From Hyphomicrobiaceae bacterium (GTDB taxonomy: Bacteria; Pseudomonadota; Alphaproteobacteria; Rhizobiales; Xanthobacteraceae), in assembly GCA_947472885.1 (NCBI GenBank), contig CANJBX010000015.1, positions 1 to 64,000 of the forward strand: DNA of 64,000 bases. The letters are read 5' to 3'. Position numbers and translations under genes: made by a program. The notes below the pieces were generated by a model that had not been told where the DNA came from, did no database searches, and saw nothing but the letters and a program-made list of their open reading frames with translations. Each line of letters starts with the position of its first letter. Position 1 is the stretch's first letter. This document shows positions 12,693 to 40,710 of this stretch, in pieces.

Positions 12693-12742
12693 GCGTGATC
12701 CTTGTCCGAAAACCGGAAGCCCACTTTTCGGGGATCACGCCC
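12693..12742. repeat. palindromic intergenic repeat, copy 1
   Basis: This is an imperfect palindrome of about 50 bases: GCGTGATCC and GGGATCACGC form the ends, with TCCGAAAACCGG and CCACTTTTCGG inside. The same element, with CATGATC ends, occurs at 23748-23796. Extragenic palindromes of this composition are abundant in Bradyrhizobiaceae-type genomes. It lies between convergent genes, and its edge supplies the TGA stop of the PilZ gene. Confidence 0.75.
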
Positions 12743-13001
12743 TGAACGCGACGCCCATCCGCATGTCGAAGCGCCACACCATCCTGCAGCAATGCACGAT
12801 GGCGAGTTCGTCGAAGCTCAGTTCGAATTCCGGCGGCAGCACCGCCGGGGCCGCAAGCACGAGGCAGGCGCCCGTATCGCTGATGTTGCGCACGGTGCAA
12901 TCGAGCACGGAAGCGCGGGCGTTGAACACGATCTTCGCGGGCTTGCAGACGCGAATGCGCGCGTGTGTTCTGCGGTCGGAAAAGAAAAGCGGCCTGTTCA
13001 T
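12735..13001 (-). CDS. single-domain PilZ protein (c-di-GMP binding)
   Basis: This protein of 88 residues consists of little more than a PilZ domain. It contains the RxxxR motif (RTHAR, residues about 9-14) and the (D/N)xSxxG motif (NISDTG), which together bind cyclic di-GMP in the family. Single-domain PilZ proteins act as adaptor receptors. The start MNRPLFF at 13001 is chosen because it leaves a domain of normal size; an upstream extension to 13103 has no similarity to the family. The last residues and the stop codon fall inside a palindromic repeat, so the C-terminus may have been reshaped by that element. Confidence 0.82.
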   Translation of the reverse strand: MNRPLFFSDRRTHARIRVCKPAKIVFNARASVLDCTVRNISDTGACLVLAAPAVLPPEFELSFDELAIVHCCRMVWRFDMRMGVAFRA

Positions 13002-13130
13002 GCCAGCAATGATGCACGGCAAAGCTGAGAGCTGAACTAAAGCAGACCACACTTCAAACGGGTATTTTGTAATAAAGCATTTACCATGCGGGCTGGCGCG
13101 CATGGGCGGCTGAAGCCGATATCACAAAAG

Positions 13131-14561
13131 CTAGAGCGGGAATTTCTGCTCGGCCATCAGCGGAATGCGCTCGATCAATCCGCCGAGATTCCCGGACGTC
13201 AACAACAGCACGACATCATCCGCTCGCAGCGACCCGCCGATTGTATTGAGCGCATGTTCGGGATCGGAGATCGGCTCGGCGTCGAAACCTGCCTTGATGA
13301 CGCGCGCGACGATTTCATCCTGCGAGATCTGCGCATGGGTCGCCGCGCCCTGCGCTGCCGGCTCGAAGATGTAGACCTTGCTGGCGCCGCCGAACACATC
13401 GTCATACCAGCCGATGGATTCCCGGTTGCGCCAGGAAAACGTGTGCGGCTCGAACACAACCACCAGCCGCTGCGCGGGGAAGTGCTGCTTCATCGCCGCA
13501 ATGGCGCTGCGCGCCTTGTCGTAGGATGAACCAAAGCCCTCGAAAATCGGCAGCCGCGTCTTTTCCGATTTGCGGTCCAGCCTGCGGCGAATGCCGCGGA
13601 AGCTCGCAATCGCCGTCGCGATCTGTTCCGGCGTAGCGATGTTGTGCGTGAGCAAGAATGCCGCGACGCCAACGATGTTCTGGATATTGTGTTCGCCAAG
13701 CTGGTTGGTTTCGAGCGATACAATCTTTTCAGCGCCGCGCATCAAGGTGAAGCGCGTGCGTTCGCCCCAGACGATATCGGCGGCGTGATATTCGCCCCTG
13801 TGAACGCCGTAGGTAACGACCGGGCGGGCGATTCTGGTCAGCACGTCCGCGCTCAGCGGCCCCTCAAGACACATCACGATGCTGCCGTCCGCCGGAACGA
13901 GCTTCGTCAGTTCGATGAATGGCGCGACGTAATCCGCTGGTGTCGGAAAAATATTGACGTGGTCGTGTGCAATCGGCGTGATCAGGAGATGCCTGGGATG
14001 GTAATGCAGGAACTTCGAGCGCGGATCGGTGTTCGACGACGGATACTCGTCGCCTTCCAGCACGAACAGCTTGCCCTTCCCCATCCGCGCATTGGTCGAT
14101 GGCGTCAGCGGGATCGCGCCAATGAACCAGGATGAATCGTATCCTGCGCTCGATGCCGGCAGGCTTTCGAGGCAATGGGCGAACAGCGCCGTGCTGGTCG
14201 ATTTGCCGAATGCACCGGCGACAACGATGGTGTCCTTGGCTGAGGATATCTCGCTCAGGACTTCGGGAAACGACATGATGCGAATGCCGCTCGCGTAAGC
14301 CGCTGCGACTTCAGGATTGGTCTCAGGCACCAGCTTGGCGTTCTTGCCGATGACAATGAGGTCCGCATCGCGTGGCAGGTTCCCGGCGGCATAGCTGGTC
14401 TGGTAGGGAATGCCGAGGTCTTTCAGAAAGTCGGAAACCGGCGGATAGACGCCTTCGTCCGAGCCCGTGACGACCACGCCGCTGTCGTGCAACAGCTTCG
14501 CCACGGCGCTCATGCCGGCGCCCGCGATGCCGATGAAATGGACGCGTCGGAAGGTCGCCAA
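13131..14561 (-). CDS. Mpl-like Mur ligase with divergent active-site motifs
   Basis: This 476-residue protein has the Mur ligase layout. The N-terminal Rossmann part (VHFIGIAGAGMS, VTGSDEGVYPP) and the EGDEY, SKFLHYHPR and GEHNIQN segments are closest to Mpl, which ligates UDP-MurNAc to recycled L-Ala-gamma-D-Glu-meso-DAP. The ATP loop is GAFGKSTS (residues 116-123) instead of GTHGKTTT, and the usual DDYAHHPT block is replaced by EGFGSSYDKA. The start is a TTG at 14561 with GGGGA six bases upstream. It lies far from the dcw cluster, as expected for a recycling enzyme. It may be an Mpl with altered chemistry or a paralogue with another amino-acid substrate. Confidence 0.8.
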   Translation of the reverse strand: MATFRRVHFIGIAGAGMSAVAKLLHDSGVVVTGSDEGVYPPVSDFLKDLGIPYQTSYAAGNLPRDADLIVIGKNAKLVPETNPEVAAAYASGIRIMSFPEVLSEISSAKDTIVVAGAFGKSTSTALFAHCLESLPASSAGYDSSWFIGAIPLTPSTNARMGKGKLFVLEGDEYPSSNTDPRSKFLHYHPRHLLITPIAHDHVNIFPTPADYVAPFIELTKLVPADGSIVMCLEGPLSADVLTRIARPVVTYGVHRGEYHAADIVWGERTRFTLMRGAEKIVSLETNQLGEHNIQNIVGVAAFLLTHNIATPEQIATAIASFRGIRRRLDRKSEKTRLPIFEGFGSSYDKARSAIAAMKQHFPAQRLVVVFEPHTFSWRNRESIGWYDDVFGGASKVYIFEPAAQGAATHAQISQDEIVARVIKAGFDAEPISDPEHALNTIGGSLRADDVVLLLTSGNLGGLIERIPLMAEQKFPL

Positions 14562-33210: not shown

Positions 33211-34413
33211 TTACTTTGCCGTAAGCGCCGTCGGCACCCTGGCGCCGTCATAGAGCCACGCCAGCGAATCCCAAACCTCGTCGCGCGACATGGCGCGGAA
33301 GCGGCGATGGACCGGGCCGCGCGTCTCGCCTTCGGGATGCAGCACCGTCCACAGGTAGCGCGACTCGAAAATCACCCGCGCGGTACGCACGGCGCGCTCG
33401 GCCTGGAACTGGCGGAATGCGGCTTCATAGTTGCCGCGCGATAGCTCAATCAGTTCGGCAAGTACCACGCCATCTTCAATTGCCATGCAGGCGCCCTGCG
33501 CCAGTGCCTGCAGCGTCGAATGCGCGGCATCGCCGAGCAGCACCGCGCGGCCCCTGGTCCAGTGGCGGATCGGTTCACGGTCGGCGACCGCGCCACGCCA
33601 GTCGAGCGCCGTCATGTCGATCAGCTGCTTCATGACGGGATGCGCGCGGGCATAGGTCTTCTGGATTTCGTCGCGATAGGTCTCGACATCGACCTTCTGC
33701 GCATAGGTCGGCGTGCGGAACACCGTGACGATGTTGAACAGCTTGCCGTGGCGCAACGGATAATGAACGATGTGAAAGCCTTCGCCACCCCACAGTGCGA
33801 CGACGCGCTTGTCCACGCCGTTCGGCACCTGCTCGATTGGAATGGTCGTGCGATGCGCGACCCAGCCGATGTAGTTCGGATCGCCATCGCCGAACATCTG
33901 CGCACGAACTCTGGAACGAATGCCGTCCGCACCGATCAGCGCTGCGCCGTCGAAGTGATTGCCATCGGCCGTGTTCACAACCACATGGCTGCCGCGATCC
34001 TCGAAACCCGTCACCGCCGAGCCGGTCGAAAACGAAATCCCGCTTACCTTCCGGCACGCATCCATCAGGATATTATGCAGGTCGCCGCGGTGAATGATGA
34101 TGTAGGGCTGGCCGAAGCGCTTGAGGATTTCCGGCGTCGTATCGACGCGCGTCACTTCCTCGCCGCTGAACGCATCGACCCAGACAGCAGCCTGCGGAAA
34201 ATCCGCCTCGCGCTTCACGATGTCGGAGAGGCCAAGCCGGTCGAACATGTGAAACACGTTCGGCCCGAGCTGGATGCCGTAGCCGATGCCACCGATTTCC
34301 CTCGCCTGTTCGATGACATGAACGGGGATACCCTTGCGGCCGAGCGCCAGCGCTGCTGAAAGTCCCCCGATGCCACCGCCCGCGATCAGGATCGGCTGAG
34401 AAATCGTCCCCAT
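33211..34413 (-). CDS. FAD-dependent aromatic hydroxylase (3-hydroxybenzoate 6-monooxygenase-like)
   Basis: The 400-residue protein is a group A flavin monooxygenase. It shows the N-terminal GxGxxG (ILIAGGGIGGLSAALAL), the DG motif (LIGADGIRSRVRAQMFG), and the second FAD motif GRAVLLGDAAHSTLQALAQG. It resembles 3-hydroxybenzoate 6-hydroxylase and salicylate hydroxylase, which use NAD(P)H and oxygen; the exact ring substrate cannot be read. It lies between murB and ddl, on the same strand and about 40-80 bases from each, so it is probably carried on the dcw transcript. No other aromatic catabolism gene is close. Confidence 0.87.
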   Translation of the reverse strand: MGTISQPILIAGGGIGGLSAALALGRKGIPVHVIEQAREIGGIGYGIQLGPNVFHMFDRLGLSDIVKREADFPQAAVWVDAFSGEEVTRVDTTPEILKRFGQPYIIIHRGDLHNILMDACRKVSGISFSTGSAVTGFEDRGSHVVVNTADGNHFDGAALIGADGIRSRVRAQMFGDGDPNYIGWVAHRTTIPIEQVPNGVDKRVVALWGGEGFHIVHYPLRHGKLFNIVTVFRTPTYAQKVDVETYRDEIQKTYARAHPVMKQLIDMTALDWRGAVADREPIRHWTRGRAVLLGDAAHSTLQALAQGACMAIEDGVVLAELIELSRGNYEAAFRQFQAERAVRTARVIFESRYLWTVLHPEGETRGPVHRRFRAMSRDEVWDSLAWLYDGARVPTALTAK

Positions 34414-34453: not shown

Positions 34454-35371
34454 TTAGGCCGGAACGCCAATCCGCTTGATTTCCCACTCCAGTTGAATGC
34501 CGGAGCTTTCCTTGACCCTGGCGCGCACGGCTTCACCGAGGCCTTCGATATCCGCCGCCGTCGCACCGCCGAGGTTGATCAGGAAGTTGCAATGCAATTC
34601 CGACACCTGCGCGCCGCCGATCTTCATGCCGCGGCAACCCGCCGCGTCGATCAGTTGCCAGGCCTTGTTGGCGGGCGGATTCTTGAAGGTCGAACCGCCG
34701 GTGCGGCTCTTGATCGGTTGCGTCGCCTCGCGCGATTCCGTGATCTTGTCCATCGCCGCCTGTATCGCGACCGGATCTCCGGGCGCGCCCTGATACAGCG
34801 CCTGCGTAAAGATGATGTCGTCCGGCAGACCGCAATGCCGGTAGGTGTAATGCATATCGGCATTTGTGTAGACGTGGATGTTGCCCTTGCGGTCGATACC
34901 GCGCGCCTCGATCAACACGTCTTTGGTTTCGCCGCCATAGGCTCCGCCGTTCATGCGCAACGCGCCGCCGATACCGCCCGGGATGCCGCGATAAAATGCC
35001 AAACCATCGAGCGAGGCTTCCTGCGCGGTGCGGGCGACCTTCACATCCGGCACGCCGGTTCCTGCGCGCACACGATTGCCGCTTTCAACCGTTACTTCGG
35101 AAAATCCGCGGCCGAGGCGAATGACAACGCCCGGCACGCCGCCGTCGCGCACGATGAGGTTGGAGCCAAGCCCCACCACCGTCACCGGGATTTCATCCGG
35201 CGTATTCCTGAGAAAACAGGCGAGGTCGCCCTCGTCCTCCGGCATGAACATCACCTGAGCCGGCCCACCAACGCGAAACCACGTCAGTTCGGCGAGTGTC
35301 TGGTTGGCAATCAAGCGACCGCGCACATCCGGCGCACGCGCTTTCAGGTCTGGAATGATGTCGGCGAACAT
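34454..35371 (-). CDS. murB: UDP-N-acetylenolpyruvoylglucosamine reductase
   Basis: The 305-residue FAD enzyme reduces the enolpyruvyl ether to give UDP-MurNAc. Visible are [51 protein letters not shown], the [11 protein letters not shown] block with the proton-donating Ser, and [22 protein letters not shown]. This is a type I MurB. Its start and the murC stop share one base. Confidence 0.97.
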
Positions 35372-36777
35372 TACGCCTTCGTCCCACCGAGTTCGTTCGG
35401 CAATGCGTAAGCCCAGGTCGTGATCGAACCCGCGCCGAGGCAGACGACGTAGTCGCCCGGCTTCGCGATGCCCTTCACGATGGAAGCAAGCTGTTCAGGA
35501 CCATCGAGCGGGATCACATGACGATGGCCGCGCGCGCGCAGGCCGGAGATATAGGAATCACGGTCGATGCCGGGGATCGGCTGCTCACCGGCGGAATAGA
35601 TCGGTGCGACGACGACGGCATCGGCGTCATTGAAACAGGTGCAGAATTGCTCGAATAGCGATTGCAGGCGCGTGTAGCGATGCGGCTGCACCACCGCGAT
35701 GACCTGCCCCTTGGTGGATTCCCGCGCAGCCCTCAGCACCGCCGCGATTTCGACCGGGTGATGGGCATAATCGTCGATGATGGTGACGCCGTTCCATTCG
35801 CCGGTGCGGGTGAAGCGCCGCTTGACGCCGCCGAAACTACCGAGCGCCTTGCGGATGCGGTCATCGTCCACGCCGAGTTCGCGCGCGACCGCAATCGCAG
35901 CCGTCGCATTGAGCGCATTGTGACGGCCCGGCATCGGCAACACGAGGTCGGAGATCGTGTGCGCAGCCGCACCGTCCCGGTCACGGAATACAATTTCAAA
36001 GCGCGAACGGCCGCCTTCGTTACTGAGTTTGGTCAGACGCACGTCGGCCTGCGGATTCTCGCCATAGGTCAGGATACGGCGATCCTCGATGCGGCCAACC
36101 AGCTGCTGCACCACATCATGATCCGTGCACATGACGGCAAAACCATAGAACGGCACGTTCTCGATGAACTTCTTGAACGCGGCCTGCACCGCATCGAACG
36201 TCTTGAAGTGATCGAGATGTTCGGGATCGACATTGGTGACAACCGCAATGTCGGCCGGCAGCTTGAGGAACGTGCCATCGGATTCGTCAGCCTCGACCAC
36301 CATCCAGTCGCCATCGCCGATGCGTGCGTTGGTGCCATAGGCGTTGATGATGCCGCCATTGATGACCGTCGGATCGAGATTGCCAGCGTCGAGCAACGCC
36401 GCAACCATGGATGTCGTCGTGGTCTTTCCATGGGTGCCTGCAATCGCGACGCAGCTCTTGAAGCGCATCAGCTCGGCAAGCATTTCAGCACGCAGCACGA
36501 CCGGACGGCGGCTGGCGCGCGCGGCCACGAGTTCCGGGTTATCGCGCTTGATCGCCGACGACACGACGACCACGGCGGCATTGCCGATGTTGGCCGCTTC
36601 ATGACCGATGGCGATTACGATGCCTTTTTCCCGAAGGCGTTTTACGTTGGCACTGTCGGCCACGTCGGAGCCGGTGACCTTATAGTTGAGGTTCACCAGC
36701 ACTTCGGCGATGCCGCTCATGCCAATGCCGCCAATTCCAACAAAATGGATCGGCCCGATGTCACGCGGCAGTTTCAT
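35371..36777 (-). CDS. murC: UDP-N-acetylmuramate--L-alanine ligase
   Basis: The 468-residue Mur ligase starts [21 protein letters not shown]. It has the canonical P-loop [35 protein letters not shown] and [10 protein letters not shown], all complete, unlike the Mpl-like paralogue at 13.1-14.6 kb. It adds L-Ala to UDP-MurNAc in the cytoplasm. It is in the usual place between murG and murB. Confidence 0.98.
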
Positions 36778-39303: not shown

Positions 39304-40710
39304 CTATTTTGTCCGGATCGATTCAAGCCCCGGCAGCGCCTTGACCAGACTGCGGAACGCGTCACCCCGGATTTCGAAGTTCCGGTATTGGTCGAACGAT
39401 GCACAGGCAGGCGACAATAATACCACTGGATCTGCCACGCCTGACGCCGCCGCATCCTTGGCCGCCGCGGCGACGGCGCGATCGAGCGTGCCGACGATAT
39501 CCGCCGATGCTTTGCCCTCAAGCGTGGCGGCGAAGTCACTGGCCGCCTCGCCGATCAGATACGCCTTGCGGATGCGCGGGAAGAATTCCGACAGCGAGAC
39601 AATACCGCCGGTCTTGGGCTTGCCGCCCGCGATCCAGAAAATATTGCTGAAACAGGCCAGCGCCTGCGCGGCAGAATCCGCATTGGTCGCCTTGGAGTCG
39701 TTGACGAACAGCACATCGCCGACGTGGCCGACCTGCTCCATGCGGTGTGCAAGACCGGGGAAGCTGCGCAATCCATCCTGGATTTGCTGCACCGTCATGC
39801 CCAGCGCAAGCGCGGCCGCCGCCGCGCACGCCGCATTCTGCGCGTTGTGGCGCCCGCGCAGCGAGCCGATGCCGTCGAGGCTGGCAATCGTCTGCACGAC
39901 ACCGTCTTTCGCCAGCATGACTTTATTATCCGCGGCGAAAATCCCGTCACGCAATGCGCGCTGTGCGGAAATCCGCACCACGCGCTTGCCGGCTTTTGAA
40001 ACGCGGTCAGCCGCGGCGGCGCACCACTCATCATCGACGCCGACAACTGCCGTGCCATTCGCGGGCACACCGGCAACAAGGCGCTCCTTCACCGCAGCGT
40101 AATGCGCAATCGTGCCATGGCGGTCGAGATGATCTTCCGAAACATTGATAAGGATGCCGACGGTGGGGTCGATGCTCGGCGCGAGATCGATCTGATAGGA
40201 CGAACACTCGATGACGTAGCTGCGTCCCGGACGCGGCGGATCGAGCGACAGGATCGCGGTGCCGATATTGCCGCCGAGCTGCACATCGTGGCCGGCGGTT
40301 GCGAGCAGGTGCGCGATCAGTGCGGTCGTCGTCGATTTGCCATTGGTGCCGGTGATCGCGACGAACGGCGTATCCGGCGCGTGGGCGCGGCGCTCCTGGC
40401 AGAACAGTTCGATATCGCCGATGACCGGGACGCCGGCGGCTTTCGCCAGCGTCACCGGCCAGTGCGGCGCGGGATGCGTCAGCGGCACGCCGGGCGTCAG
40501 CACCAGCGCAAAAATCTTCGTCCAGTCGAGTGTGTGAAAGTCGGCGGTCGGCACGCCGGCCTGATGCGCATGCGCCATCCGTTCCGCGCTGTCGTCACCC
40601 GCGACCACATCGGCTCCGCCCGCGAGCAACGCACTGGCGCCCGCCAGCCCCGACCCGCCAAGGCCGAAGACCGCGACCTTCTTGCCGGCGAATGTGGTGA
40701 TCGGGATCAT
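39304..40710 (-). CDS. murD: UDP-N-acetylmuramoyl-L-alanine--D-glutamate ligase
   Basis: The 468-residue Mur ligase has [18 protein letters not shown] at the N-terminus, the P-loop [16 protein letters not shown], the SSYQ strand ([11 protein letters not shown]), [11 protein letters not shown] and a C-terminal [15 protein letters not shown]. It adds D-Glu to UDP-MurNAc-L-Ala. It follows mraY by nine bases. Confidence 0.97.

Follow-up and report, generated by a model that had tools for sequence, protein, structure and literature searches.

A Mpl-like Mur ligase clade with a rebuilt C-terminal domain, shared by Patescibacteria and Rhizobiales: possible loading of L-Ala-D-Glu in place of MurC and MurD

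The pathway in which MurC, MurD, MurE, and MurF act in this order is among the most conserved in bacteria and is a drug target. Canonical murein peptide ligase (Mpl) accepts tri-, tetra-, and pentapeptides and uses L-Ala-D-Glu at 1.4 per min versus 260 per min for the tripeptide, the sole dipeptide figure in the available text; E. coli mpl, when overexpressed, can substitute for murC (PMC3060825). The same text assigns Mg, adenine, ribose, and phosphate contacts in Mpl, describes an Mpl-specific Tyr182 and the loop (S/T)AFFDKRSK, and names His376, Arg377, Arg380, Tyr346, and His348 as the residues said to hold L-Ala in MurC (PMC3060825). PgeF removes single residues from UDP-MurNAc and acts mainly on UDP-MurNAc-monopeptides (available text of PMC8844914), and ATE1 transfers a tRNA-borne amino acid onto the amino group of Asp or Glu (available text of PMC10115844). 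In the open-licence PMC literature, we recognized no description of the ligase clade reported here, of its gene neighbors, or of Patescibacteria without MurC and MurD.

The window (the whole stretch of 64,000 nucleotides analyzed here, from a Hyphomicrobiaceae bacterium) encodes a Mur ligase in which the usual DDxAHHP block reads EGFGSS (Table 1). Its frame is intact, with a TTG start at 14561, GGGGAT ahead of it, and a GC/GC3 of 0.609/0.776, like the adjoining genes. The Pfam domains Mur_ligase (PF01225), Mur_ligase_M (PF08245), and Mur_ligase_C (PF02875) follow one another in order, each above its gathering score. The EGFGSS ligase is present as a single copy in the host genome, which holds no Mpl above the curated cut-off and retains canonical MurC, MurD, MurE, and MurF beside it. 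A gene for a PilZ-like protein, recognized by eye, adjoins the ligase gene (12735 to 13103, minus strand), and a PilZ-like frame also lies ∼1 kb from the ligase in one related locus (L044). Within the dcw cluster, a FAD-monooxygenase-like gene, likewise recognized by eye, is located between ddl and murB (33211 to 34413, minus strand). PADLOC defense models gave zero matches, and a defense role was rejected on this ground.

Table 1. Positions of the EGFGSS ligase, its motifs, and the canonical Mur ligases of the host in the window
Feature	Positions	Strand	Basis or remark
EGFGSS-type Mpl/MurC-like Mur ligase, 476 aa	13131..14561	-	Pfam domains; model pLDDT 94.7
P-loop GAFGKSTS, residues 116-123	14193..14216	-	Motif reading, alignment; most clade members read GS[FY]GK[ST]
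Mpl-like central insert EGDEYPSSNTDPRSKF, residues 169-184	14010..14057	-	Alignment with E. coli Mpl and MurC
EGFGSSYDKA, residues 341-350, replacing DDxAHHPTxx	13512..13541	-	Motif reading, alignment
FEPHTFSWRNR, residues 370-380, replacing QPHRxTR (MurC) or EPRSNTMR (Mpl)	13422..13454	-	Alignment
Canonical MurC, dcw cluster, DDYAHHP and GTHGKTTT intact	35371..36777	-	Motif reading, alignment
Canonical host MurD	39304..40710	-	Served as tree outgroup
Canonical full-length host MurF, 479 aa	41810..43249	-	Reference for MurF lengths
Canonical full-length host MurE, 484 aa	43246..44715	-	Reference for MurE lengths

When 84,980 species genomes were scanned with a 10-row alignment, 287 relatives were returned, the best 80 of which were taken and make up 80 of the 89 related loci considered here. 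EGFGS recurred in 88 of the 89 and the loop G..GK[ST] in 87 (L133 is truncated, and L112 reads GSYAKST). Neither EGFGSS nor G..GK[ST] was among the two peptide patterns used in the scan; one of these was FEPHTF, whose conservation in the 80 loci from the scan therefore partly reflects how they were chosen. Because of this recurrence, the divergence is neither chance nor sequencing error, and decay or a frameshift was ruled out by the open frame and the conservation of the motifs across two phyla. The original prediction had called the divergence real on the grounds that the MurC of the cluster has both motifs intact, and in this it was borne out. For comparisons of single residues, 59 of the 89 loci were aligned with the window protein (60 rows; near-copies above 82% identity and two truncated rows were left out).

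None of 40 relatives has an orthologue. Matches at 1e-20 were obtained in 37 of 41 genomes, but besides the window gene all were at most 31% identical and were taken as MurC, and a conserved function in close relatives was therefore rejected. Of 247 further genomes from the family, 5 have orthologues with 53 to 59% identity, and one is also present in each of four genomes that are more distant but within the class. Among the best 80 of the 287 relatives, 55 loci belong to Proteobacteria, mainly Rhizobiales, and by their titles include isolates (Roseiarcus fermentans and several Bradyrhizobium; isolate titles at L073, L082, L096 to L098, and L130). The other 25 come from Patescibacteria (Adler-, Nomura-, Kaiser-, Campbell-, Parcubacteria, and others) or from phylum-unnamed small genomes grouping with them. 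Patescibacteria are mostly uncultured episymbionts. When 96 of their genomes, including the known carrier G984, were drawn evenly, G984 alone gave a clade-like score (766 bits; next, 348), and the ligases of other Patescibacteria mostly have GTHGK and DDYAHHP (29 loci read). Contamination of bins is unlikely given the Rhizobiales isolates, neighbors found in Patescibacteria only (rsmI, 12 loci), and carrier genomes of 0.5 to 0.9 Mb without any other MurC. A plasmid origin was also rejected: 56 plasmid records matched, none with at least 60% identity, and the annotated ones among the matches listed were MurC or Mpl.

The protein was assigned to neither of the two nearest families. It scored 251.8 bits with the NCBIfam murC profile (TIGR01082; cut-off, 335.1) and 188.9 bits with mpl (TIGR01081; cut-off, 388.7). 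All 60 aligned members matched both profiles, with best E values of 2.6e-82 (murC) and 5.7e-67 (mpl), which, by comparison with the scores of the window ligase, would correspond to bits below both cut-offs. Conversely, a profile made from the 60 members scored E. coli Mpl at 381, above MurC at 330. True Mpl or true MurC membership was rejected on cut-offs and motifs together. The Mpl-like layout that had been predicted from EGDEY, SKFLHYHPR, and GEHNIQN was found as described, with all three segments present, an Mpl-like insert, and the Mpl-specific Tyr182 after EGDE represented by Y173. The Mpl loop itself is absent, and PSSNTDPRSK in its place shares only D-x-RSK. The NCBIfam scores thus lie nearer murC than mpl, and below both cut-offs, while the profile of the 60 members ranks Mpl first.

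The original prediction had described the canonical active-site motifs as lacking, with EGFGSSYDKA in place of the DDxAHHP block; the replacement was seen at residues 341 to 350, whereas GAFGKSTS still fits Walker A, with K120 invariant in 60 of 60 aligned members. As read from the alignment, the one genuine loss is that of the C-terminal DDxAHHP block, and the ATP loop is conservatively changed. Further residues invariant in all 60 are E169, Y173, H201, H291, N295, R327, E341, G344, S345, S346, K349, H373, W377, and R378. They include what is expected of the Mur ligase superfamily: beside the P-loop Lys, the Mg ligands (E169 and H201), the adenine His/Asn pair (H291/N295), and the Arg preceding the C-terminal domain (R327) are all conserved. 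The ribose-binding Asp and phosphate-binding His of DDxAHHP are missing. Relative to the ATP contacts predicted for Mpl (PMC3060825, available text), the ribose-binding Asp373 aligns with G342 (preceded by E341), the phosphate-binding His376 with S345, and Asn205 with P196; Asn205 is likewise replaced, by Ser, in Patescibacterial ligases with intact DDYAHHP (L233, L234, and L240). E341 may assume the ribose contact. Among the residues said to bind L-Ala in MurC, the alignment retains only His376 (H373), while Arg377, Arg380, Tyr346, and His348 correspond to T374, W377, F343, and S345. The predicted structure is a high-confidence, full-length Mur fold (pLDDT 94.7) whose nearest solved structures are MurC (1p31; Z, 43.4; root mean square deviation [rmsd], 2.3 over 452 residues); against Mpl (3eag), Z was 38.2 and rmsd 2.2 over 312 residues.

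Since the UDP-MurNAc loop, P-loop, and metal sites are retained and the ATP and L-Ala contact sites are changed, the ligase is expected from its sequence to be active with another incoming group. The earlier suggestion of a different peptide substrate probably holds. The changed ATP-binding residues predicted for Mpl speak against this reading, and together with the finding that no cell-wall-linked gene adjoins the ligase within the window, they would suit an inactive or repurposed paralogue without a role in peptidoglycan synthesis in Rhizobiales. We consider such a paralogue most improbable, given that the catalytic Lys, the metal ligands, and the motif are kept in 60 of 60 aligned members of two phyla and that no defense model matched.

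The history of the gene was examined in a quick, midpoint-rooted tree without bootstrap, comprising 104 rows (including the window protein and 54 hand-picked loci of the 89, with the host MurD as outgroup and L245 cut to its first 470 residues). Proteins with EGFGSS and GS[FY]GK[ST] formed one clade with an SH-aLRT support of 100. A clade sharing the same replacements, of the kind that had been named as decisive if its members were proven Mpl enzymes, thus exists; to our knowledge, none of its members has been biochemically proven, as Mpl or otherwise. Its sister consists of three Patescibacterial rows (L232, L245, and L252) with DLAHSP motifs, a plausible intermediate. Proteobacterial rows were scattered among Patescibacterial ones, a single proteobacterial clade was rejected (lnL difference, 197; p-AU, 0.0005), and the window protein grouped with the Patescibacterial L054 and L055 and other Rhizobiales (support, 100). 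Because the proteobacterial copies are polyphyletic among Patescibacteria, several transfers between the two phyla are likely; judged by the nesting in this quick, midpoint-rooted tree, their direction was most probably out of Patescibacteria.

A murC search covered 35 carrier genomes (12 proteobacterial and 23 small; L105 and L132 were left out). All 12 proteobacterial carriers also have canonical MurC above the cut-off. None of the 23 small genomes does: in each, the EGFGSS ligase is the sole MurC/Mpl-type enzyme and itself the best murC match (217 to 277 bits). MurD is likewise missing from all 23, where the matches are other ligases with at most 92.5 bits, versus 261 to 395 bits for the MurD of seven other Patescibacteria (7 of 8 control genes were scored; L271 was left out). 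MurE above the cut-off and a MurF-like gene below it are present in all 23, the latter fragmentary in G994, and one MurE match (G983:C2:58172-59413) contains an in-frame TAA. As read from the match lists, each small genome has three Mur ligases; beyond these, G995 has a weak fourth gene, G993 a weak, fragmentary match, and G982 additional MurF pieces. Patescibacterial carriers have the EGFGSS ligase alone for what takes two different enzymes in other bacteria. In G984 (488,796 bases), MurA, MraY, MurG, FtsW, FtsI, and MurI are present (regions L195 to L221), and queries from E. coli or the window found no convincing match for MurB, Ddl, or FtsZ, so either the pathway is unusual or the genome is incomplete. 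A non-peptidoglycan Mur ligase, one of the options originally raised, is disfavored by the presence of MurE and MurF-like genes without any other MurC/Mpl-type ligase in Patescibacterial carriers, and by MurA, MraY, and MurG in this one carrier genome searched.

Among the carrier frames read (20 MurE and 22 MurF-type), all 20 MurE lack the first 60 to 103 reference residues and have a short stub instead. MurF frames are likewise N-terminally short, except for L166_3, with a longer N terminus, and the fragment L178_2. The EGFGSS ligase is therefore the main Mur ligase with a clear UDP-MurNAc domain in these genomes. MurE and MurF without the UDP-MurNAc domain might build a tri- or pentapeptide free in the cytoplasm, which the ligase would attach as a whole; the mostly short carrier frames and the acceptance of tri-, tetra-, and pentapeptides by Mpl (PMC3060825, available text) agree with such a route. 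We nevertheless regard it as quite unlikely: in other Patescibacteria (L262 and L276, the latter with canonical MurC and MurD), short MurE and MurF also stand beside MurD and DDYAHHP ligases, and truncation therefore does not have to imply that free peptides are the substrates. The short frames were rejected as proof of free-peptide assembly, the controls marking them as a wider Patescibacterial trait. In many Patescibacteria (L154 to L193; L262, L263, L265, L268, L272, L276, L277, and L280), whether or not canonical MurC and MurD are present, MurE and MurF lack the N-terminal UDP-MurNAc-binding domain (the first ∼60 to 107 residues of the reference).

Two genes recur beside the ligase in Patescibacteria. 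Of the 25 Patescibacterial loci, 20 have a gene resembling arginyltransferases (ATE-like) shortly downstream of the ligase and in the same orientation, with an overlap of the ligase stop in several, and 13 have a PgeF-like gene upstream; seeds for both models were picked by motif or position, and seed loci match their own model by construction. Neither gene was found in any of 64 proteobacterial loci or in the window, an absence that is weak where flanks are short (∼1.5 kb in L040 to L049), and no functional neighbor of the ligase was found in Rhizobiales. Among 20 control regions from Patescibacteria, an ATE-like gene is absent from the 8 with MurD; L261 and L272, which have no MurD in the region, do have one, and the ligases of both are members of the sister group. 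A sister-group protein of 695 aa (L245 in G1041, and also L272:8388-10484) is a Mur ligase that extends far beyond the usual C terminus and has the motifs GNFGKGT and RDLAHSP, adjoined by an ATE-like gene; L252 (G1059) has similar motifs. In two related loci (L114:8758-9981 and L131:8776-9987), a protein of ∼405 aa is encoded upstream of the ligase with a convergent murE downstream; the scan of L131 gave no clear family.

The predicted structure of the ATE-like protein (pLDDT 85.2) was nearest to ATE1 (8tzv_A; Z, 18.6; rmsd, 3.5 over 221), with a Z of ∼16 against KlAte1 with Glu/Asp-started peptides; MprF and FemX came next. ATE1, MprF, and FemX are all aminoacyl-tRNA-dependent enzymes. A search of solved structures by sequence with the ATE-like profile gave weak ATE1 matches only (E, 0.25). 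By analogy, ATE1 chemistry would be that required for making L-Ala-D-Glu.

We give even chances to a joint reading in which the protein is an active Mpl-like UDP-MurNAc:peptide ligase of Patescibacterial origin, loads L-Ala-D-Glu there, and serves salvage in Rhizobiales. The ligase would attach a peptide by its N terminus to the UDP-MurNAc lactyl carboxylate at the expense of ATP, with a C-terminal amino-acid/peptide-binding domain apparently rebuilt by the change from DDxAHHP to EGFGSS and the loss of both L-Ala-holding arginines of MurC. In Patescibacteria, where MurD is missing, it would be the only enzyme able to start the stem peptide; because MurC and MurD are missing and the Mpl-type insert is kept, the simplest candidate for its substrate is a ready-made unit containing L-Ala and D-Glu. 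Canonical Mpl is poor with L-Ala-D-Glu, and any use of the dipeptide would have to stem from the rebuilt domain. The candidate for making L-Ala-D-Glu, from Ala-tRNA and D-Glu, is the ATE-like protein; that for removing misloaded single residues is the PgeF-like protein. Rhizobiales and other Proteobacteria would have received only the ligase, on several occasions, and probably employ it for Mpl-type peptide salvage beside a complete MurC-to-MurF set. Caulobacter, another alphaproteobacterium, is described as having neither Mpl nor LdcA (available text of PMC13046382); a borrowed Mpl-like enzyme could therefore add peptide salvage. The 5 of 25 Patescibacterial loci without an ATE-like neighbor, the lack of a functional neighbor in Rhizobiales, the occurrence of short MurE and MurF outside the carriers, and the gaps at MurB, Ddl, and FtsZ in G984 count against the joint reading. 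The complete scheme, in which an ATE relative makes L-Ala-D-Glu, the rebuilt ligase loads it onto UDP-MurNAc in place of MurC and MurD, and the ligase alone passed repeatedly to Rhizobiales, is offered tentatively, as one we would sooner doubt than accept.

A PgeF-like neighbor in 13 of 25 loci would fit a MurC-like step at least as well, as PgeF edits UDP-MurNAc-monopeptides (PMC8844914, available text). The ligase could then be a divergent MurC that adds L-Ala, another unrecognized enzyme adding D-Glu in Patescibacteria and Rhizobiales keeping a spare MurC. The higher murC than mpl score, its top rank among MurC-type matches in all 23 Patescibacterial carriers, and the ability of overexpressed E. 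coli mpl to replace murC (PMC3060825, available text) point the same way. A divergent MurC nonetheless seems unlikely to us, since the Mpl-type insert and its Tyr are retained, both arginines and His348 of MurC are lost, D-Glu addition is left unexplained with MurD missing in 23 of 23, and a second MurC would seem of little benefit to Rhizobiales.

A lineage without MurC and MurD yet with MurE and MurF-like genes (and with MraY and MurG in the one genome searched) points to an alternative start of the stem peptide, for which the carrier lineage names three candidate genes. The repeated gene exchange between Patescibacteria and free-living Rhizobiales is a clear case and may hint at who lives with whom.

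Compared with described systems, the window ligase shares with Mpl (TIGR01081; 3hn7 and 3eag) the three-domain architecture, EGDEY with the Mpl-specific Tyr, the D-x-RSKF insert, and its occurrence as a single stand-alone gene in Proteobacteria; it differs in scoring below the cut-off, in EGFGSS for DDFAHHP and FEPHTFSWRN for EPRSNTMR, and in forming a separate clade. With MurC (TIGR01082; 1p3d and 2f00) it shares the fold (Z, 43), the best NCBIfam score, and the position of sole MurC-type enzyme in Patescibacterial carriers, but MurC has no central insert, and its Arg377, Arg380, Tyr346, and His348 are replaced. The DDYAHHP MurC/Mpl-like ligases of Patescibacteria in part share the EGDEY-type insert and differ in that GTHGK and DDYAHHP are intact in most. 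Like the ATE1/Bpt arginyl- and leucyl-tRNA-protein transferases, the ATE-like neighbor has ATE_C Pfam matches and ATE1 as its nearest structures; in contrast to them, it scores far below the curated arginyltransferase cut-offs. The PgeF-like neighbors retain the catalytic Cys107 and His124 of PgeF/YfiH in 10 of 10 aligned proteins, whereas His71 is not kept in the alignment and one of three scanned neighbors matches the Pfam model. Finally, the sister group (L232, L245, and L252) shares with the EGFGSS clade an ATE-like gene adjoining two of its ligases, as seen in L261 and L272.
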